Positions 3,171 through 21,790 of a stretch of DNA of 22,012 bases are shown in pieces. The notes below the pieces were generated by a model that made no database searches, was not told where the DNA came from, and was given only the letters and a program-made list of their open reading frames with translations. The stretch lies in the IMG/VR virus record IMGVR_UViG_3300025759_000792, positions 1 through 22,012 of that record. The stretch is one strand, 5' to 3'. The position numbers and the translations under genes are program-made. This DNA comes from a virus. Every line of letters starts with the position of its first letter. Position 1 is the first letter of the stretch.

Positions 3171-3980
3171 ATGAATAATATAGTTGAATTAAAAATCAAA
3201 ACAGAAATCAAAGAAGGCGTGTACCAAGACATGCCTTTTTCTCAGTACAACGAATTAGATGCTATTAGGTCACACGACTTAACATCTTTTACCAAAGACC
3301 CTTACACTTGGAAGTATGAAGAAAAGCCAGATAGCGAAGCTTCATTCTTTGTTGAGGGTAGATTGCAACATTGTTTATTTTTAGAGCCACACGTCTTTCA
3401 CGATGAGTTTGTGGTTGCACCAAAAGTAGATAGAAGAACCAAAGCTGGTAAGGCTGAATACGAAGACTTCCTTGCTTCAGTGAACGATAGAAGTGTCGTA
3501 ACCCAAGATTTATACGATGCATGTCAAGAGAGAGTTGAGGTCTTAGATGCCTTTAGACCACAAGCCAAAGACTCTACTGAAGTTAGTATTGTCTTTGATT
3601 ATTACGGCAATCGCTGTAAAGCCCGGTTCGATATGATACAAAACAATGTGATAGTAGACCTGAAGACCTGCCGTGACGCTAGTCCCAAAGGTTTCAAACA
3701 AGCCATCAAGTCTTATGGTTATCACCAACAGGCCGCTTTTTATCTTGATGCTGCAGCTTCTGCAGGTATGACAGAGGTAGACAGGTTTCACTTTCTAGCC
3801 ATATCTAAACAGCACCCCTATCCTTATGCTGTCTATGAGCTAAGCGATGAAGCCATTGAATACGGCAGAGCTTTGAACGAGAAAGCAATCGACCAGATGA
3901 AGTTTTGTGAGCAGACAGGTATCTATACACCTTTTAACTTACACAACAAAATCATTGAGATAGGTATTAGTGATTTGTAA
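3171..3980 (+). CDS. RecE-like PD-(D/E)XK exonuclease (exodeoxyribonuclease VIII type)
   Basis: This 269-aa protein has the layout of the RecE C-terminal nuclease domain, which degrades the 5' strand of duplex DNA for recombination. Visible motifs are the N-terminal EGVYQDMPFSQYN entry (15-27), SHDLTSF (34-40), the conserved histidine in EGRLQH (62-67), Glu137, Asp154 in KARFD, the DLK triad (Asp163-Lys165), and a downstream QxxxY-like helix (Q187 AAFY 191). The ATG at 3171 lacks an obvious Shine-Dalgarno, but the conserved domain begins before the next Met (residue 21), so the upstream start is kept. The SSB-like partner is immediately upstream. No RecT-type annealase is seen in this window, so the SSB-like protein or a gene elsewhere may fill that role. 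Confidence 0.85.
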   Translation: MNNIVELKIKTEIKEGVYQDMPFSQYNELDAIRSHDLTSFTKDPYTWKYEEKPDSEASFFVEGRLQHCLFLEPHVFHDEFVVAPKVDRRTKAGKAEYEDFLASVNDRSVVTQDLYDACQERVEVLDAFRPQAKDSTEVSIVFDYYGNRCKARFDMIQNNVIVDLKTCRDASPKGFKQAIKSYGYHQQAAFYLDAAASAGMTEVDRFHFLAISKQHPYPYAVYELSDEAIEYGRALNEKAIDQMKFCEQTGIYTPFNLHNKIIEIGISDL

Positions 3981-4032: not shown

Positions 4033-4047
4033 AGACCCTGCTTGTGA
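3991..4047 (+). CDS. Possible 18-aa leader ORF, or the true 5' end of the next gene
   Basis: TTG at 3991 lies six bases after GGAG (3981-3984), an ideal ribosome-binding distance, and opens an 18-codon frame (MSPISPPHQGLLKLRPCL). Its TGA (4045-4047) overlaps the GTG start of the 91-aa gene in the form GTGA, the classic geometry for translational coupling. It also contains a run of seven C (4006-4012). A -1 slip there would enter the 91-aa frame and give one protein of about 109 aa. A miscounted C run would look identical. Whether it is a leader, the first part of a frameshifted gene, or an assembly artefact cannot be decided here. Confidence 0.4.
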   Translation: MSPISPPHQGLLKLRPCL

Positions 4048-4319
4048 AAGCACCAGAACACGACCACATGTATTGGGCAGAACAGGCTGCTCAATACAAC
4101 ACCCAAGCAGAACGAGAAGACTTCTTAAAGTCTGAAGGCTTTACCAACCAACAACGTATTGATTGTATCTTGCACCTAGCTGTAAGTTACTTACCTGCTC
4201 GTATGTACAATCTGTCAAATAAATTAATTGCCGCTGCTTGGCACGACCTGCCAAATGATACTGCAAAGACTATGTTCGCTGTGGGTATAAAATCTTATAA
4301 AAGAAAGTACAACACATAG
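4044..4319 (+). CDS. Small protein of unknown function downstream of the exonuclease
   Basis: A 91-aa protein from a GTG start at 4044. I do not recognise the family. It is predicted mostly helical, with aromatic and charged segments such as HMYWAEQAAQYN (8-19) and a C-terminus rich in Lys and Tyr. No Shine-Dalgarno precedes the GTG; the only good one lies before TTG 3991. Translation therefore probably depends on coupling from the leader ORF or on frameshifting at the C7 run. The frame is open back to the exonuclease stop codon (the two are in the same frame). It is the last plus-strand gene of the recombination block and its position suggests an accessory role in recombination. Its stop codon lies within a second stem-loop (4312-4354). 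Confidence 0.65.
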   Translation: MKAPEHDHMYWAEQAAQYNTQAEREDFLKSEGFTNQQRIDCILHLAVSYLPARMYNLSNKLIAAAWHDLPNDTAKTMFAVGIKSYKRKYNT

Positions 4320-4354
4320 TCGGAAATAATGAATGAAAAAAAAGAACTATGTGT
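4312..4354. other. 9-bp inverted repeat at the convergent junction
   Basis: ACACATAGT (4312-4320) and ACTATGTGT (4346-4354) are exact complements around a 25-base loop that contains eight A in a row (4336-4343). It includes the TAG stop of the 91-aa gene and lies between convergent operons. On the minus strand the A run reads as U8, but inside the loop rather than after the stem, so it is not a canonical terminator in either direction. It may still act as an mRNA 3'-end structure. Confidence 0.35.
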
Positions 4355-4415
4355 CGCACCTTCATCACATGCTTATGGAATGAGCTGTGATTTTAACTGT
4401 TTTCCTCTGCAATAA
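4329..4415 (+). CDS. Doubtful 28-aa ORF
   Basis: ATG at 4329 opens a 28-codon frame with three cysteines (Cys8, Cys20, Cys24) and a weak GGA upstream. It fills the gap after the 91-aa gene and overlaps the 3' end of the opposing 76-aa gene by 23 bases. Cys residues could bind metal, but the length, the weak ribosome site and the overlap make it a marginal candidate. Confidence 0.2.
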   Translation: MNEKKELCVAPSSHAYGMSCDFNCFPLQ

Positions 4416-4623
4416 TAATTGCACCATCCACTTTGATGTCAGTAAAGTTTAAGCCACTGACCTCTTCCTTGTTGACTTTAAATATTACATCACGAACCAA
4501 CAACCTCATCAATGCTGCCTTTTGATACAAGTTTAATCTTGCATAGGTTTCTATAATTTCCTCTCCTGTAAGTCTACTTGCGTTTTGCAAGACATCCTCA
4601 CCTTTCTTTTTGAATAATGACAT
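4393..4623 (-). CDS. Small cassette protein 8 (76 aa), unknown
   Basis: Last gene of the eight-gene minus-strand cassette. ATG at 4623 follows an AGAGG ribosome site and overlaps the end of the 48-aa gene by 26 bases. The N-terminus is basic (MSLFKKKGEDV) and a helical stretch (about residues 19-45, including ARLNLYQKAALMRLLVRDVI) precedes a beta-like C-terminus ending in acidic residues (DGAIIIAEENS). I do not recognise it. Its place at the promoter-distal end, together with the absence of any enzyme motif, fits a small binding protein, but no function can be assigned. Confidence 0.75.
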   Translation of the reverse strand: MSLFKKKGEDVLQNASRLTGEEIIETYARLNLYQKAALMRLLVRDVIFKVNKEEVSGLNFTDIKVDGAIIIAEENS

Positions 4624-4744
4624 GTTTCCTCTCTATTTTATTTTTTTTGTTTATCTCTTGTATCTTTTCAAGATGCTCTAGTATTCTGAACTCTTTTTCT
4701 AACTGCTCGTTTACTAATTCTTGTTTTTCCTTTTCTGTTCTCAT
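4598..4744 (-). CDS. Small cassette protein 7 (48 aa), predicted coiled coil
   Basis: I chose ATG at 4744 because AGGAG (complement of 4749-4753) lies at ideal spacing and the codon forms an ATGA overlap with the stop of the preceding 28-aa gene. A TTG further upstream would extend the frame but has no ribosome site and would overlap the membrane-peptide gene. The product is almost entirely charged and helical (EKEKQELVNEQLEKEFRILE), with hydrophobic residues spaced like a short coiled coil, so it may dimerise or bind a partner. Function unknown. Confidence 0.7.
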   Translation of the reverse strand: MRTEKEKQELVNEQLEKEFRILEHLEKIQEINKKNKIERKHVIIQKER

Positions 4745-4827
4745 AATACTCCTATTATATAGATAACCATGCCACATGTAAGCAATGCAAAGACCGAAGT
4801 CCAATACATCTTCTCGTCATCTCTCAT
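4741..4827 (-). CDS. Small cassette protein 6 (28 aa), single-pass membrane peptide
   Basis: ATG at 4827, with AGGGAG nine bases upstream, encodes a short charged head (MRDDEKMYW) followed by a hydrophobic segment of about 19 residues (TSVFALLTCGMVIYIIGVL) reaching the C-terminus. This is a single transmembrane helix with an acidic/basic N-terminus, probably N-in. Its TGA overlaps the next ATG (ATGA) and its start overlaps the previous gene's end by 11 bases. That coupling is the main evidence it is translated. It could be a pinholin-like peptide, a host membrane-protein inhibitor or a superinfection factor; nothing in the sequence separates these. Confidence 0.65.
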   Translation of the reverse strand: MRDDEKMYWTSVFALLTCGMVIYIIGVL

Positions 4828-4981
4828 GGTTGTTGTTCTCCCTAATATCATTAGCCATGTTCAGCCAATCGACATCTATCTCGTCCTTTTTGTTGTCAAT
4901 TCTGTACATGACGAAAGCATAGAACTCTCGCCATGTGTTATCAATCCAACGGTCTAGTCTTTGGAAGAAAGCTTTTATCAT
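4817..4981 (-). CDS. Small cassette protein 5 (54 aa), amphipathic
   Basis: ATG at 4981 lies inside ATGA with the TGA of the 111-aa gene and is preceded by a near-perfect GGAGG. The 54-aa product starts with an aromatic, amphipathic helix (MIKAFFQRLDRWIDNTWREF) and becomes acidic in the middle. Three Trp and four Phe in the chain suggest a protein- or membrane-surface-binding peptide. It is too short for a catalytic domain. I do not recognise it; the coupled start and strong ribosome site make it a confident gene despite its size. Confidence 0.75.
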   Translation of the reverse strand: MIKAFFQRLDRWIDNTWREFYAFVMYRIDNKKDEIDVDWLNMANDIRENNNHER

Positions 4982-5313
4982 GCTACCTCCAACATTGAAT
5001 CAATATATTTAGCCACTATCTCTTCTCCCACTATGTAAGTGTACATGTTGACTATCTGCTCAGGATTGCTGAAGTCTGTCAGCACTTGACCAAAGTTATT
5101 GTCCTCGTATGCTTTTATAATATCGATGACATTAAAAGCTTCAGCACCTAACCACTTCCTAGCTTTCTCTGTGCCTATGATGTAATAGTCTTGGTTAAAC
5201 GCCATGTCATGCAGTTCATCAAGCCACCTGTTAGGATAGTTCTCGACAAGGTAATCTTTGTTCTCTGCAAGAAAGTTATCAAAGTGTGCCTGTATCTCTT
5301 CTTGCTTAAACAT
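4978..5313 (-). CDS. Small cassette protein 4 (111 aa), conserved acidic phage protein
   Basis: ATG at 5313 follows GGGAG by seven bases and overlaps the preceding gene by eight bases. The product is acidic and predicted helical, with a central DELHDMAFNQDYYIIG segment (residues 32-47), then KARKWLG, a DNNFGQVLTDFSNPEQ stretch, and a hydrophobic helix NMYTYIVGEEIV. From memory the same pattern (LHxxxFNxDYYIIGxxxAxxWL ... DNFGExxTDLxxxExVxNMxAYIxGEE) recurs in hypothetical proteins of many phages, marine ones included, so it looks like a real conserved family without a known function. It is the longest product of the cassette and the best one to search for homologues. Confidence 0.8.
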   Translation of the reverse strand: MFKQEEIQAHFDNFLAENKDYLVENYPNRWLDELHDMAFNQDYYIIGTEKARKWLGAEAFNVIDIIKAYEDNNFGQVLTDFSNPEQIVNMYTYIVGEEIVAKYIDSMLEVA

Positions 5314-5569
5314 TGGCTACTCCCTGTGCATATTTAATAGCTTGATAGATATTCTGTGCTTCTTGGTCATCGAATGTTTTAAAAGGTATTTTCTTTTCAA
5401 AGCGACCTGAAAAACCTTCTACCAATTTGATATCGTCACCTATACCATCTTCAAACTTTCTGATGATAAGTCTTTTACCTTCGTTGCTCTTGGTGAAGTA
5501 GATGGTAGTTAATTTACATTTCTTACCTAAATACTTTACATCTTTGGTTGTTGTTTTTACTGCTTCCAT
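5306..5569 (-). CDS. Small cassette protein 3 (87 aa), beta-rich, unknown
   Basis: ATG at 5569 shares its A with the TAA of the gene before it (TAATG) and has GGAGATGA upstream. The 87-aa product has alternating hydrophobic residues suggestive of beta strands (KLTTIYFT, KRLIIRKF, DDIKLVEGF) and a C-terminal helix (DDQEAQNIYQAIKYAQG). The opening YLGKKCKLTTI (14-24) resembles FLGKKVKYKKE (31-41) of the first gene in the cassette, so the two may share an ancestral strand or fold. No enzyme motif seen. Confidence 0.75.
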   Translation of the reverse strand: MEAVKTTTKDVKYLGKKCKLTTIYFTKSNEGKRLIIRKFEDGIGDDIKLVEGFSGRFEKKIPFKTFDDQEAQNIYQAIKYAQGVANV

Positions 5570-5712
5570 TATCTCATCTCCTTATTTTTTTGGTCTGTTT
5601 TTTCTATGTAGTCAAGTTCAGCTTGAGTAAAGACATTCCACAGATACATCACTTGCTCTTCTGTATAACTGTCTAGTTCTCTTTTTCTTTCTTCTGTAAG
5701 TATTGTTCTCAT
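5569..5712 (-). CDS. Small cassette protein 2 (47 aa), unknown
   Basis: This short gene fills the 142-base space between two longer genes and is tied to both by TAATG overlaps: its ATG (5712-5710) shares a base with the upstream TAA, and its TAA (5571-5569) shares a base with the downstream ATG. GAGG precedes the start. The product (MRTILTEERKRELDSYTEEQ, then VMYLWNVFTQAELDYIEK) is a charged two-helix peptide. No family recognised. The double coupling is strong evidence of translation. Confidence 0.72.
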   Translation of the reverse strand: MRTILTEERKRELDSYTEEQVMYLWNVFTQAELDYIEKTDQKNKEMR

Positions 5713-6014
5713 TACGCCACCTCTATCTCTTCTACATTTAAACATCTTCCAAAGGTGTCTTTATAGTTTACTGTTGCATAACCTCTTAAAACATCTTTAC
5801 CCTGCCAATCTTTTTGCACTTGCTTTATCTCATATATTTCAGTAAGTGCATACTCTCCAACACCTCTTAAAAAAGAAGGGTTTTCTAGCAATTCTTTTTT
5901 GTATTTAACTTTTTTACCTAAGAACTTACCAAGTTCAAGGTTGTCAGTGATTGTTGACATTTTAAATTTATTTGCCAAACCACTTTCGGTCAAATCTTTA
6001 TGTAATTTATTCAT
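5712..6014 (-). CDS. Small cassette protein 1 (100 aa), unknown
   Basis: First gene of the cassette; ATG at 6014 with GGAG and a good promoter 30-60 bases upstream. The 100-aa basic product has a helical N-terminus (MNKLHKDLTESGLANKFK) and then a beta-like region beginning FLGKKVKYKKE (31-41), with further strands around EYALTEIYEIKQV and GYATVNY. I do not recognise it. Its position directly behind the promoter implies that it is expressed at least as strongly as the others. Early phage genes of this size are often inhibitors of host enzymes, which is context, not evidence. Confidence 0.78.
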   Translation of the reverse strand: MNKLHKDLTESGLANKFKMSTITDNLELGKFLGKKVKYKKELLENPSFLRGVGEYALTEIYEIKQVQKDWQGKDVLRGYATVNYKDTFGRCLNVEEIEVA

Positions 6015-6045
6015 ATCGTTTCTCCTATTTATTTGATATACCTAT

Positions 6046-6073
6046 ATTATACACAGCTAACATTTATTATCAA
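6046..6073 (-). promoter_or_regulatory. Sigma70-like promoter of the small-gene cassette
   Basis: On the minus strand TTGATA (complement of 6068-6073) and TATAAT (complement of 6046-6051) are 16 bases apart. Transcription would start near 6039 and give a leader of about 25 bases that carries GGAG before the ATG at 6014. The -10 is a perfect consensus and the -35 matches five of six positions. Confidence 0.7.
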
Positions 6074-6089
6074 CACTTTTCAACACTTT
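6070..6089. repeat. Tandem 10-bp direct repeat abutting the -35 box (candidate operator)
   Basis: TCAACACTTT occurs at 6070-6079 and again, with no gap, at 6080-6089. The first copy overlaps the -35 box of the cassette promoter. A one-helical-turn direct repeat is what ribbon-helix-helix repressors commonly bind, and an RHH gene starts about 640 bases away. Binding is inferred. Confidence 0.5.
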
Positions 6090-6102
6090 ATTTACATTTT
6101 TT

Positions 6103-6672
6103 TTACGGCAGTATTTCATAGACATAACCTCTTACTGACCTAGGTTTCTTTAATGCTATCTCATGCAAATTGCCTTTTACTTTTTTGGTAAGGTCCCAAA
6201 ATGTATCTCTGCCGGGGTCTGCTATAAGTATTGGACACTTGGCTTCTTTGACTAACTTCTGTATGTTGCCAACGTGTTGTTCCCAATAACAAATGTCACA
6301 ACCAATAATTAAATCTATCTTGTCAAAAACAACCTCAGGTAAATCTTTGTAATCCATGTATAAGACTTCAACGCTTGTCTTGTTGTATTTATTCACCACA
6401 TCAACAAAAGGTTTGGTGTTTACATCTATGTCTATGCCACCACAATCAATGCCTTGCTTCTGTAAGTAAGCCAAAACCACACCCCAACCACAACCAATGT
6501 CTATTGCTGTTTTGACTTTAGATAAGTTATACCGTGATAAGAAATCTATGATAGTAATAGAAGAGTTCCAGACTTTGTTACCATGACTGATTGGTTTTTT
6601 GGTTTGTCGCTTAATCTTCTTGATATCCCTATCGGTAGATAATGGAATTTTTATGTTGTGAATTGATTTCAT
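6103..6672 (-). CDS. Class I SAM-dependent methyltransferase (possible protein methyltransferase)
   Basis: A 189-aa Rossmann-fold methyltransferase. Motif I is AIDIGCGWG (56-64), followed by an acidic strand end GIDID (79-83) for the SAM ribose, MDYKDLP (106-112), and CDICYWEQH (125-133) at the motif IV position. ADPGRDTFWDL (151-161) resembles the 'DPGR' strand of COG3897-type/METTL20-like protein methyltransferases. I see neither the DPPY/NPPY motif of N6-adenine methylases nor the PC/ENV motifs of C5-cytosine methylases, so a DNA methylase is less likely. The ATG at 6672 has no Shine-Dalgarno and lies close to an AT-rich divergent promoter region, so it may be leaderless or weakly translated. 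Possible roles are modification of a host translation or virion protein; substrate unknown. Confidence 0.8.
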   Translation of the reverse strand: MKSIHNIKIPLSTDRDIKKIKRQTKKPISHGNKVWNSSITIIDFLSRYNLSKVKTAIDIGCGWGVVLAYLQKQGIDCGGIDIDVNTKPFVDVVNKYNKTSVEVLYMDYKDLPEVVFDKIDLIIGCDICYWEQHVGNIQKLVKEAKCPILIADPGRDTFWDLTKKVKGNLHEIALKKPRSVRGYVYEILP

Positions 6673-13581: not shown

Positions 13582-14316
13582 TTACATAAATTCTTTCATA
13601 TAATCTCTTGTCTCGTCTTTACATACAAGCCAAAAAACTAATAAATACCTGTCTCCACTTTTAACAGGCAGTCCTCTATGCATGTGAGTTAGGCTTGGAA
13701 ATATTAAAGCATTGCCTGTAGGCAAAGGCTCAACAATCCCTTTACGCATAAACTCAGTACCACCGCCTTCATAATCTCCTGTATTCAGGGGTACTACTAT
13801 ACTTATATCAGAACTAGCATCGTGATGCCATGCTCCTTGTTTTTTATCTCTTAAATTGTAATTAGCTATCTGTATGTTACCACCTGTAACACACCTGTTC
13901 CAAATGCTTAGCAATATTGGATTAATAACCCTATCAACCACCTGCATCAGCGAATGATATAGCTGTGGACACTTTTCATATAAAACAATCTCTGGTATCT
14001 GTCTCAGCTCGTCCTCTTCTTGATTTGGCTCAAAACCAAAATGTTTGGTCATATTGTGCATTTCATCAATTAATAAAGTACAAAACTCTTGTGAGAATAA
14101 AGGTACTGTATGCACATCCTTTAACGGTTCTTTGATGATATTATTTAAAGGAAGGTTGTCTAGTGAATCTAGCTTTTCATTATAAAAGTCACCTAATATA
14201 GGCAATGTTTCTTTAGTTTTAGCTAGTGTTTCTTTTTCTACAAACCAATCTGAAGCAAAGCCAAGTAAAAGATTTTTAAGCTCATACTCTAATTCAGCCT
14301 TGGTTTGTGCCAACAT
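13582..14316 (-). CDS. 2-oxoglutarate/Fe(II)-dependent dioxygenase (prolyl-4-hydroxylase-like)
   Basis: A 244-aa protein with the P4H-type double-stranded beta-helix signature in its C-terminal half: WHHDASSD (163-170) provides the HxD iron ligands (His164, Asp166), HMHRGLPV (211-218) the distal histidine (probably His213), and GDRYLLVFW (221-229) the arginine that anchors 2-oxoglutarate (Arg223). YEGGGTEF (182-189) is the usual strand between them. The N-terminal half is helical and unassigned. It lies inside the virion operon, four bases after a small tail gene, which suggests that it hydroxylates a virion or host protein, or is carried in the particle. Catalysis is supported by the complete motif set; the substrate is unknown. 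Confidence 0.85.
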   Translation of the reverse strand: MLAQTKAELEYELKNLLLGFASDWFVEKETLAKTKETLPILGDFYNEKLDSLDNLPLNNIIKEPLKDVHTVPLFSQEFCTLLIDEMHNMTKHFGFEPNQEEDELRQIPEIVLYEKCPQLYHSLMQVVDRVINPILLSIWNRCVTGGNIQIANYNLRDKKQGAWHHDASSDISIVVPLNTGDYEGGGTEFMRKGIVEPLPTGNALIFPSLTHMHRGLPVKSGDRYLLVFWLVCKDETRDYMKEFM

Positions 14317-20027: not shown

Positions 20028-20324
20028 TTACTTTTTAAGCTTACCGCCTCTACCAAGCTTTTTAACTCCTGATTTAGCTACGCCACCCATACGTTTTTTC
20101 ATAACTCCTGATTTGGCTGAAGCACCACCGCCTCTACCAAATTTTTTAACGCCTGCTTTTGGCATACCGCCCATACCAAGCTTGACAACACCTGACTTCA
20201 TAGTAGCATCGCCACCACCTGCCATTTTTACAACACTGCTGTCTTTCATGGATTTGGCTATTTCAGCTTTGTCTTTTTTAGATAGACTGCCTACTAATTT
20301 TTTTAATCCTTTTAATTTAGCCAT
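20028..20324 (-). CDS. Lys/Gly-repeat small basic protein (98 aa)
   Basis: After a basic helical start (MAKLKGLKKLVGSLSKKDKA), the protein consists of four imperfect units of about 12-16 residues based on K-(S/A)-G-V-x-K-x-x-x-(G)-G, for example KSGVVKLGMGG, KAGVKKFGRGGG, KSGVMKKRMGG and KSGVKKLGRGG. It is strongly basic and probably disordered. Such a sequence would bind nucleic acid or acidic virion surfaces. It is one of five basic small genes in this part of the operon. No known domain; role in DNA condensation or ejection is inference. Confidence 0.6.
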   Translation of the reverse strand: MAKLKGLKKLVGSLSKKDKAEIAKSMKDSSVVKMAGGGDATMKSGVVKLGMGGMPKAGVKKFGRGGGASAKSGVMKKRMGGVAKSGVKKLGRGGKLKK

Positions 20325-20818
20325 TATCTGCTCCTTCTATTTAAAATGTTCTGGTAATCTTCGCGATTCCAATTCTTATAATAACCTATTTTTTCTAATC
20401 TTTCAGATGCTTTATTTAATTCATCTAATTTTTGCATAAAAACCATATTATAGCTATCTGCAAAATGTGGCTCAAAATCCTCTTGTGGCACCACCGTCTT
20501 TTCTTCATGGTCTTGATGAAAACCCATAACCCATAAGTTTTTAGGGTTTAAGAAGTTATTAAGCAAAGATATTCTGCTGTCAAAGTTGGGTGCATCAATA
20601 TCCATGTTTAGGTCACAATATATAATCACGTCTTTGTCTATAGGAAAGTTTTGGCTTATTTCTACAAAATCAGACCAATATTCACACTTAGATAGTACAA
20701 CATCAACCCTATCTGATTCCCATGTTTTTTTTGCGTATGGGCATATAGGGTCATCTGTTTCTAAAACTTCTTTTGACCAATCACGAACCTCTTGTTCTAC
20801 TAATTTTTGTGTTATCAC
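20324..20818 (-). CDS. Conserved phage protein of unknown function (164 aa)
   Basis: An acidic 164-aa protein starting with a helix (LVEQEVRDWSKEVLET), then DDPICPYAKKTWESDRVDVV (22-41), a strand DKDVIIYCDLNMDID, and LWVMGFHQDHEE (94-105). The ICPYAKK segment and the FHQDHEE segment look conserved; Cys26, Cys45, Cys69 and the two His (100 and 103) could bind metal but the spacing is not a known motif. I recall such proteins in marine phage genomes without an assigned function. Unlike its basic neighbours it is acidic, so it might be a chaperone for them. Confidence 0.6.
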   Translation of the reverse strand: MITQKLVEQEVRDWSKEVLETDDPICPYAKKTWESDRVDVVLSKCEYWSDFVEISQNFPIDKDVIIYCDLNMDIDAPNFDSRISLLNNFLNPKNLWVMGFHQDHEEKTVVPQEDFEPHFADSYNMVFMQKLDELNKASERLEKIGYYKNWNREDYQNILNRRSR

Positions 20819-21066
20819 TTTTTTTTTGTAAAGGTTTTTACATTAGTTGGTTTACCGCCAACACCTTGTTTTTTAGCTCTCTTTCTTGTTACAGCTGAAC
20901 GCTTTTCACCTTTAGACATGCGGTTTGCGGTAGCCTTTGGTACACATTTTGGATATTTTCTTTTAGAGCCTTTGGCTTTTTTTCTACCGCATTTTTCGTA
21001 GCCTCCACCTTTTTTAGGCGAGCCTATGTCAACCCATTCTTCAGAAAACCACTTACCTAAACCCAT
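20815..21066 (-). CDS. Small basic Lys-rich phage protein (83 aa)
   Basis: The sequence runs KWFSEEWVDIGSPKKGGGYE, then CGRKKAKGSKRKYPKCVPK (26-44), then MSKGEKRSAVTRKRAKKQG and GGKPTNVKTFTKKK at the end. About a third of the residues are Lys or Arg. The two Cys (26, 41) with basic loops between them, and the PTNVKTF tail, are a recurring pattern in marine phage small proteins as I remember them. Probably virion-associated nucleic-acid binding. Its stop overlaps the start of the 164-aa gene by four bases. Confidence 0.65.
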   Translation of the reverse strand: MGLGKWFSEEWVDIGSPKKGGGYEKCGRKKAKGSKRKYPKCVPKATANRMSKGEKRSAVTRKRAKKQGVGGKPTNVKTFTKKK

Positions 21067-21338
21067 TATCTACCACGCATTTTGGTGACCTTTCTTCTAG
21101 GCTCCATTACAGCACCACATCCTCTTGCTATAAAACCACCATTACCTTTTTCAATAATACCGCCTGTAGCAGCCTTTTTTGCACCTTTATATTTGCCACC
21201 CATTTTTTTGTATTCACTAACCATATAAGCATTTGCGTAAGCTGAAGGATATACGTCAAACTTTGCCTTAGCCTTGGCTTTAGCTTTTGCGTATAGGGAT
21301 GGATTTGCTACGTTATCTGGTGTTTTTGATTTAGCCAT
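21066..21338 (-). CDS. Small basic phage protein with YAKAKAKAKAKFDVYPS segment (90 aa)
   Basis: The N-terminal half, PSLYAKAKAKAKAKFDVYPS (13-32) followed by AYANAYMVSEYKKMGG, forms a basic amphipathic helix and a turn; this 'YxxxKxxxKxKFDVYPSAYAN' pattern is one I know from phage proteins with no assigned role. The C-terminal half is Gly-rich (GGIIEKGNGGFIARGCG) and ends in RRKVTKMRGR. Overlaps the 83-aa gene by one base. A nucleic-acid-binding virion protein is the likeliest role; no direct evidence. Confidence 0.65.
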   Translation of the reverse strand: MAKSKTPDNVANPSLYAKAKAKAKAKFDVYPSAYANAYMVSEYKKMGGKYKGAKKAATGGIIEKGNGGFIARGCGAVMEPRRKVTKMRGR

Positions 21339-21340
21339 GA

Positions 21341-21481
21341 TTACCTCGTTTTCTTTCTTCTTCTTTTTTTTGCTTTGCTTAGTGCAATAGCAATAGCTTG
21401 GTTTCTTGGCTTACCTTCTTTTCTAAGTATGCCTATGTTTTTGCTTATAGCTTTTTTACTTTTACCTTTAGCTAATGGCAT
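21341..21481 (-). CDS. Very small basic phage protein (46 aa)
   Basis: ATG at 21481 directly follows the TAA of the 102-aa gene and the frame ends three bases before the next gene. The peptide MPLAKGKSKKAISKNIGILR then KEGKPRNQAIAIALSKAKKR is a two-helix, extremely basic protein. 'PLxKGKSKKxISxNIxxxxxxGKPxxQAxAIALSxA' is a pattern I recall as recurrent in marine phage and metagenomic virus genomes. Gapless coupling on both sides makes it a confident gene although it is short. Function unknown. Confidence 0.75.
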   Translation of the reverse strand: MPLAKGKSKKAISKNIGILRKEGKPRNQAIAIALSKAKKRRRKKTR

Positions 21482-21790
21482 TTAACACTTCCACCTTCTT
21501 CTTGCTTGCCTAATTCTTGAATTAGGGTCATTTCTTGTTTTTGCAGAGCTACGTTTTAATTGCCCAAGTGACCTTGCACAATAAGACTTACGTCTTTTTG
21601 CAGCCTTGCTACCTTTTTTAACTTTGCCTGTAACGGCTGTTTTGAGTTTTGAACCGGGGTTAGCCTTTCTATAAGCTTTAACACCCTTTTTGGTCATACC
21701 AGCACCCTTTTTAGTAGGACGGTAATTTGCACCCTTACCCTTGGTTGTTCTCGGTATGTTTTTAGCTTTTCTTTTTTTCTTCTCTGCCAT
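21482..21790 (-). CDS. Small basic conserved phage protein (102 aa)
   Basis: An Arg/Lys-rich 102-residue protein with the segments KGAGMTKKGVKAYRKANPGS (28-47), LKTAVTGKVKKGSKAAKRRK (49-68) and a C-terminus SRIRQARRRWKC. 'GAGMTKKGVxAYRxxNPGSKLxTAVTGKV...KRRKSYCARSxGQ' is strongly conserved among phage proteins as I remember them, in marine viruses especially. Two Cys (71 and 102) and overall charge suggest nucleic-acid or metal binding, with a possible role in the particle. Its stop abuts the 46-aa gene. Confidence 0.7.
   Translation of the reverse strand: MAEKKKRKAKNIPRTTKGKGANYRPTKKGAGMTKKGVKAYRKANPGSKLKTAVTGKVKKGSKAAKRRKSYCARSLGQLKRSSAKTRNDPNSRIRQARRRWKC

Follow-up and report, generated by a model that had tools for sequence, protein, structure and literature searches.

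Do small overlapping genes behind a phage promoter form one fixed functional set, or are they cargo that is exchanged gene by gene? We addressed this question with IMG/VR virus record IMGVR_UViG_3300025759_000792 (hereafter the window, that is, the whole stretch of 22,012 bases that was analysed). The window encodes a primase-helicase, a RecE/exonuclease VIII-like DUF3799 nuclease and virion structural genes, and it probably derives from a podovirus-like phage of an uncultured marine group. Between positions 6014 and 4393, eight minus-strand open reading frames (ORFs) overlap in a chain: g100, g47, g87, g111, g54, g28, g48 and g76, named by their lengths in amino acids (Table 1). The coordinates, overlaps, ribosome sites and promoter given for them in the initial annotation all agree with our analysis. 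The reading that we favour, with some reserve, is that this array is a polycistronic cargo operon of interchangeable one-gene cassettes, in which a short stop-start connector serves translational coupling and may also serve recombination.

Genes upstream of g54 are swapped, with homology breakpoints at start codons

Related contigs were gathered with five queries (a 766-aa protein, the primase, the methyltransferase-like protein MT189, g76 and g111), and part of this collection was merged into a set of 117 contigs. Small genes were called in three slots, namely slot A (MT189 to g76), slot B (g76 to a conserved 91-aa gene) and slot C (downstream of the primase), and the resulting 959 genes were clustered into 193 families. 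We mapped breakpoints by blastn between the window and five relatives whose upstream flanks are 94-96% identical to it. In all five, the g100 start marks the end of homology with the window, to within -6 to +4 nt, and in the four relatives that hold g54 it returns at -6 to 0 nt of the g54 start (4/4). Homology at g87 begins at 0 or -23 nt of its start. Clade-wide, when copies of one gene that stand in different contexts are compared (165 pairs from 59 families), their identity is 0.43 upstream and increases to 0.96 at the ATG. Module breakpoints thus coincide with gene boundaries, a few nucleotides from start codons, and g100, g47, g87 and g111 occupy a swap slot upstream of g54.

The contents of this slot differ among close relatives. 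For example, only g87 stands upstream of g54 in contig L004, genes for 124 and 137 aa stand there in L006, and L014 and L070 have other sets. The g87 gene, which is 94-96% identical in relatives, directly follows the leader in L004 and follows another gene in L005. Its 3' end is continued in three ways: at junction CAGGGAGTAGCCAATG (5311..5326, minus strand), the same g87 end leads to g111 in the window, to g54 in L004 and to a third gene in L005, and the last g87 bases before these three successors are CAGGGAGTAGCC/G. Exchange also crosses slots. A g100 homologue with 85% identity is found in slot C of L079/L034, where an unrelated gene comes next, and ten families of cassettes ending in -EVA are shared between slots AB and slot C.

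Evidence that the small frames are genes

In order from g100 to g76, the junctions are TAATG, TAATG, an 8-nt overlap, ATGA, an 11-nt overlap, ATGA and a 26-nt overlap, and a GGAG, GAGG or AGGAG site can be read before every one of the eight starts. The array thus has -1 and -4 overlaps with a Shine-Dalgarno (SD) sequence inside the upstream gene, as in operons coupled by termination-reinitiation. The ratio of nonsynonymous to synonymous substitution (dN/dS, Nei-Gojobori method) was 0.09 for g87 (n=3), 0.24 for g54 (n=10), 0.17 for g28 (n=8), 0.15 for g48 (n=8) and 0.10 for g76 (n=51). These values of 0.09-0.24 indicate that the five genes are under purifying selection in relatives, and the earlier proposal that the small frames, including g28, g48 and g54, are genes is borne out. 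Relatives in which the short frames are broken while the long ones stay intact were not observed. The value for g100 was 0.39, from two sequences only. For g47, no relative was found in the searches made and the ORF is too short for the collection scan; g47 is therefore a putative gene, called from its ribosome site and its couplings. The initial annotation considered four of the frames too short for ordinary gene finders. The usual floor is 30 codons, and only the 28-aa ORF falls under it; ORFs of 47-54 aa can be called.

A stop-start connector sets the C-terminus of the upstream protein

We derived a consensus for the joints from 75 distinct pairs of families joined by TAATG in the related contigs. 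This consensus is AAGGAGGTGGCGTA followed by ATG. The upstream protein ends in VA at 47 of the 75 TAATG joints, as compared with 11 of 288 other 3' contexts; when one joint was counted per upstream family, the number was 28 of 51, whereas the frequency of the VA dipeptide is 0.4%. In a further count of TAATG joints, 43 of 82 in this clade end in VA, against 13/120 of the other joints in viral contigs picked by the connector and 0/75 of the other joints in viral contigs picked by a control pattern (both among the matches listed). When -EV- is present, A is the next residue in 32 of 35 cases in the clade and in 0 of 5 in the control contigs, again among the matches listed.

The g111 family separates the effect of the joint from that of the protein. 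Among its homologues, 18 of the 21 copies with a TAATG joint have -VA, as do 4 of the 34 other copies (odds ratio 45; Fisher p 5e-8, which is nominal because related sequences are not independent), and the -VA copies precede nine unrelated downstream families. Because homologues of one protein carry the tail according to the type of joint, the -VA tail belongs to the joint and not to the protein.

In the window, connector GAGGTGGCGTAATG (5710..5723, minus strand) joins g100 to g47 and holds the SD sequence, the -EVA end with its stop codon and the next start codon within 14 nt. Connector GGAGGTAGCATGA (4978..4990, minus strand), of the ATGA form, joins g111 to g54. Junction AGGAGATGAGATAATG (5567..5582, minus strand), between g47 and g87, is of the TAATG type and lacks the -VA tail.

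Similarity at the joints can be long. In F34 and F49, two unrelated families, the 24 nt that precede the ATG are identical, and the match extends to 33 nt if one mismatch is allowed; the maximum in 200 resamplings from the position frequencies was 21. In L070, F49 has the C-terminus RRIDSSQNK and a new leader comes after it; the copy in L109 ends with RRIDKLQNEEVA and is coupled to the next gene. This difference looks like the result of a crossover at the 3' end of F49, which may have brought in the connector. The long 3' ends shared by F103/F185 and by F34/F176 were also considered as exchange and were set aside, as these are most likely split families. The connector is present in many other viral contigs, where, among the matches listed, a given upstream module often has different downstream partners. 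We think it unlikely that the arrays are assembly chimeras, because the connectors are shorter than the usual assembly word lengths and because 12 of 49 -VA joints occur in more than one contig.

A promoter-leader element heads the arrays

The array is preceded by a 74-bp promoter-leader element that includes a 10-bp direct repeat (Table 1). Its promoter, TTGATA-16-TATAAT at 6073-6046, matches 11 of 12 consensus positions, with the -35 at 6073-6068 and the -10 at 6051-6046. We found 26 copies of the element in 23 contigs, positioned at array heads in all three slots. The element precedes many different first genes, and its flanks are non-homologous. A stem-loop was looked for by fold z-score in 6110-6014, and none was found (-0.06). 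A direct repeat, AAGTGTTGAAAAGTGTTG (6088-6071), overlaps the -35; it is unique in the window and is a possible operator.

Proposed mechanism

On these observations, the array would work as follows. The promoter-leader element starts the array, and the swap-slot genes g100, g47, g87 and g111 come next, reading into the block g54-g28-g48 and then into the anchor gene g76. The typical joint is the connector or a close variant, in which the ribosome site lies within the final codons of the upstream gene and these codons run into the next start codon. For this reason, a cassette would supply the start signal of its successor while its own protein would end in -(E)VA. Any ORF that lies between two connectors could immediately be translated through termination-reinitiation.

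The connectors (13-17 nt) and the leader may in addition provide the short stretches of homology that phage annealing recombination uses. A candidate engine would be the RecE-like nuclease beside the array together with a RusA-like resolvase, whose gene is found downstream of the primase (slot C) in relatives. Lambda Red efficiently recombines diverged DNA (PMC2327257). That the coding connector of 13-17 nt is itself the recombination joint through which single small genes are exchanged among many marine phages is possible but doubtful. If this is true, the connector, the promoter-leader and an annealing recombinase would make up a cargo-swapping system that works without a site-specific recombinase.

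Table 1 Features of the array and its boundaries in the window
Feature	Position	Strand	Description
Promoter-leader element	6020..6093	-	74 bp; direct repeat AAAGTGTTGA x2, -35, -10, leader AGGTATATCAAATAAATAGGAGAA
MT189	6103..6672	-	conserved methyltransferase-like gene; upstream boundary of slot
g100	5712..6014	-	swap-slot gene; C-terminus -EIEVA, then stop
g47	5569..5712	-	swap-slot gene without known relatives
g87	5306..5569	-	swap-slot gene
g111	4978..5313	-	acidic four-helix protein, widespread cassette; C-terminus -LEVA, then stop
g54	4817..4981	-	opens conserved block; in 11 contigs
g28	4741..4827	-	single-pass membrane peptide; in 11 contigs, g54 always precedes
g48	4598..4744	-	charged heptad-like (coiled-coil-like) peptide; in 10 contigs
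g76	4393..4623	-	clade-wide anchor gene; 65 family members
91-aa conserved gene	4044..4319	+	convergent with array; downstream boundary
RecE/exonuclease VIII-like DUF3799 nuclease	3171..3980	+	phrog_412, E 3e-59; PF12684, E 1e-24

Alternative explanations

The initial annotation regarded the chain as one early unit of fixed stoichiometry, whose products, for example the 54-, 28- and 48-aa proteins, form one complex with the stoichiometry imposed by translational coupling. Part of the array fits this reading: g54 and g28 are adjacent in 11 of 11 contigs, and g48 follows in 9. Moreover, short overlaps are enriched for heteromeric complexes in cellular genomes, as reported for E. coli (PMC10666635). 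The -1 overlaps in this clade, unlike those, join interchangeable partners. The first four genes swap partners freely and are exchanged for unrelated ones in close relatives, so that the same partners are kept neither for g100 to g111 nor for the full trio. In L112, g48 is present without g54 and g28; in L014 and L070, where g54-g28 persists, a 31-aa gene replaces g48. Only g54-g28 is constant. The block g54-g28-g48 belongs to a subclade, g76 is the only clade-wide gene of the eight, and in other subclades the entire block upstream of g76 is replaced. Thus, neither one co-evolved unit nor an obligate trio describes the array, and we consider a fixed complex-forming operon improbable. Another explanation takes the -EVA ends to be ssrA-like signals that mark early proteins for degradation at their C-termini, with the DNA similarity being secondary. 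Val-Ala ends resemble LVA-type degrons, and the codon-structured conservation of the connector would fit such a signal. However, the tail is nearly absent where there is no TAATG joint (the 11 of 288 above), and inside the g111 family it follows the type of joint. We therefore rejected the degron, which is very improbable.

More serious is ordinary mosaicism, in which random illegitimate recombination is followed by selection for intact genes and the connector, with its strong SD sequence, Val-Ala-stop end and overlapping start codon, is kept only as an efficient termination-reinitiation context in the hosts of this phage. Part of the connector is explained in this way, because GGAGGT pairs with 16S rRNA. 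Mosaic joints often lack boundary sequences (PMC3233612), which favours illegitimate exchange. Several points weigh against the cassette reading. Illegitimate exchange with intact-gene selection likewise places breakpoints at gene ends, and a connector of 13-17 nt offers little length for the putative homologous recombination. The full GAGGTxGC motif is present at only 2 of the 7 window junctions (g100/g47 and g111/g54). The Val codon of the connector is GTG in 25 cases, GTA in 14, GTT in 7 and GTC in 1, with GCG, GCA or GCC for Ala; this nearly free wobble beside conserved Val-Ala bases looks like a codon-level or translational constraint rather than a pure DNA site. Finally, the sole family of structural genes that is joined by TAATG tends to have a terminal A as well; the structural-gene control was uninformative, with 9 junctions that come mostly from one family. 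On the other side, GCG lies outside SD pairing, yet A follows -EV- in the clade and not in the control contigs at the frequencies given above. The identity between F34 and F49 reaches far past the SD sequence, and the promoter-leader element is reused across slots. On balance, we regard ordinary mosaicism as somewhat unlikely, and we retain the operon of interchangeable cassettes. The roles of the connector in recombination and in translational reinitiation can both be true.

Comparison with known systems

Among known systems, the nearest is mosaicism in which short conserved sequences mark the boundaries between genes; the lambdoid nin region is an example. Such sequences were proposed to drive the mosaicism of some phages, whereas most joints of other phages lack them (PMC3029335, PMC3233612). 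As in those cases, a short conserved sequence lies here at the joints of non-homologous genes (75 family pairs), module ends are gene ends, the genes are small and overlapping, and phage recombination functions are nearby. The differences are that the boundary is here a coding stop-start-SD connector, which dictates the C-terminus of the upstream protein as -EVA, and that this connector is common to tens of families in several slots of an uncultured marine group. The overlaps here are -1 TAATG, whereas the lambda nin pairs examined are mostly -4.

The PeSLs of T4 are described as mobile cassettes that carry a promoter with a stem-loop (Arbiol 2010 and Comeau 2014, as cited in PMC4503421). They resemble the present system in that a repeated promoter element heads shuffled modules of small genes. 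The element described here differs from them because it is without a stem-loop; furthermore, there is one promoter per array and not one per gene, and inside the array the genes are joined by translational connectors. Integron gene cassettes, which have been reported in phages (PMC9892861), are likewise single-ORF modules arrayed behind one promoter. In contrast to them, the joints here are coding, and neither an attC-like inverted repeat nor a stable fold was found at the window joints tested. The ORFanage of the marine phage S-PM2 is also a region where small genes of unknown function are shuffled with synteny rarely kept; it belongs to another phage group, and the passages of PMC4503421 consulted describe no connector.

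Products and neighbouring genes

The predicted structure of g111 is a confident four-helix fold (pLDDT, a per-residue confidence score, 93), and the protein is acidic (isoelectric point, pI, 4.2). It matches only families of unknown function in Pfam and PHROGs (phrog_10208, E 2e-18), and 55 distinct homologues of full length are found for it in other viral contigs. The best VIA Z of its model is 3.3, and the best viral match is an unnamed protein. The model of g76 is a small alpha2-beta4 protein with two helices and four strands, and no match to it was found in the PDB. The search of Pfam and PHROGs gave no function matches for g100, g47, g87, g54, g28, g48 and g76. The description of g28 as a membrane peptide fits its maximum Kyte-Doolittle hydropathy of 2.38, and g48 appears coiled-coil-like by eye, with a charged heptad-like pattern. 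The idea that the cassettes as a class are acidic DNA mimics was dropped, since their pI does not differ from that of other slot genes. Between g76 and the convergent 91-aa gene, an 18-nt inverted repeat with a 25-nt loop (4303-4363) is a possible two-way terminator.

In L033 and L105, a C5 cytosine methylase gene is coupled into the array, and MT-A70 and Mom-like genes are found in slot C of relatives. Because DNA-modification genes sit in or beside the arrays of relatives, counter-restriction cargo is plausible. These genes are also circumstantial support for putative host-takeover or counter-defence cargo more generally. Genes of the Mom-like family stand in tandem in L036 (5671-6944), and in L050 and L066 Mom-like genes overlap a fused ATPase-acetyltransferase gene. 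By eye, the slot C genes at L032 5841-6599 and L033 8135-8917 each have the look of a PAPS (3'-phosphoadenosine-5'-phosphosulfate)-reductase/DndC-type sulfurtransferase. Family F8 (39 aa, 27 contigs; slot C in L021) has low synonymous divergence (pS 0.18 against a nonsynonymous pN of 0.12), and a conserved AGGGTAGGGCAGGGC lies just upstream of it; together these suggest that what is conserved here is an RNA or DNA feature and not a protein. Elsewhere in the window, the structural region at 20028-21790 encodes four small, very basic and possibly DNA-binding proteins (98, 83, 90 and 102 aa), one of which has repeats such as AKSGVKKLGRGG, and a 2-oxoglutarate-Fe(II) oxygenase gene (13582-14316; phrog_61, E 7e-32) lies amid structural genes.

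The closest cultured relatives, found through a stabilisation-like protein at 34-41% identity, are mostly aquatic phages and include DSL-LC04, Roseobacter phages CRP-901/902 and Pelagibacter phage HTVC027P. Searches against cultured phages gave no matches, either by megablast with 3-14 kb of the window or with MT189 and g76. Host assignment through a genome collection with MT189 and the primase gave no useful outcome.

Implications

How phage mosaicism arises, through homology at short boundaries or through random exchange followed by selection, has long been debated (PMC3029335, PMC3233612). Because the present arrays offer a measurable boundary that is repeated in tens of unrelated families, these two models can be tested apart here. 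The connector also explains why unrelated phage proteins have a common C-terminus. Furthermore, the -EVA/TAATG joint is a handle for detecting very small cargo genes without homologues or overlooked by gene finders, and new counter-defence proteins are likely to come from the swap slot.

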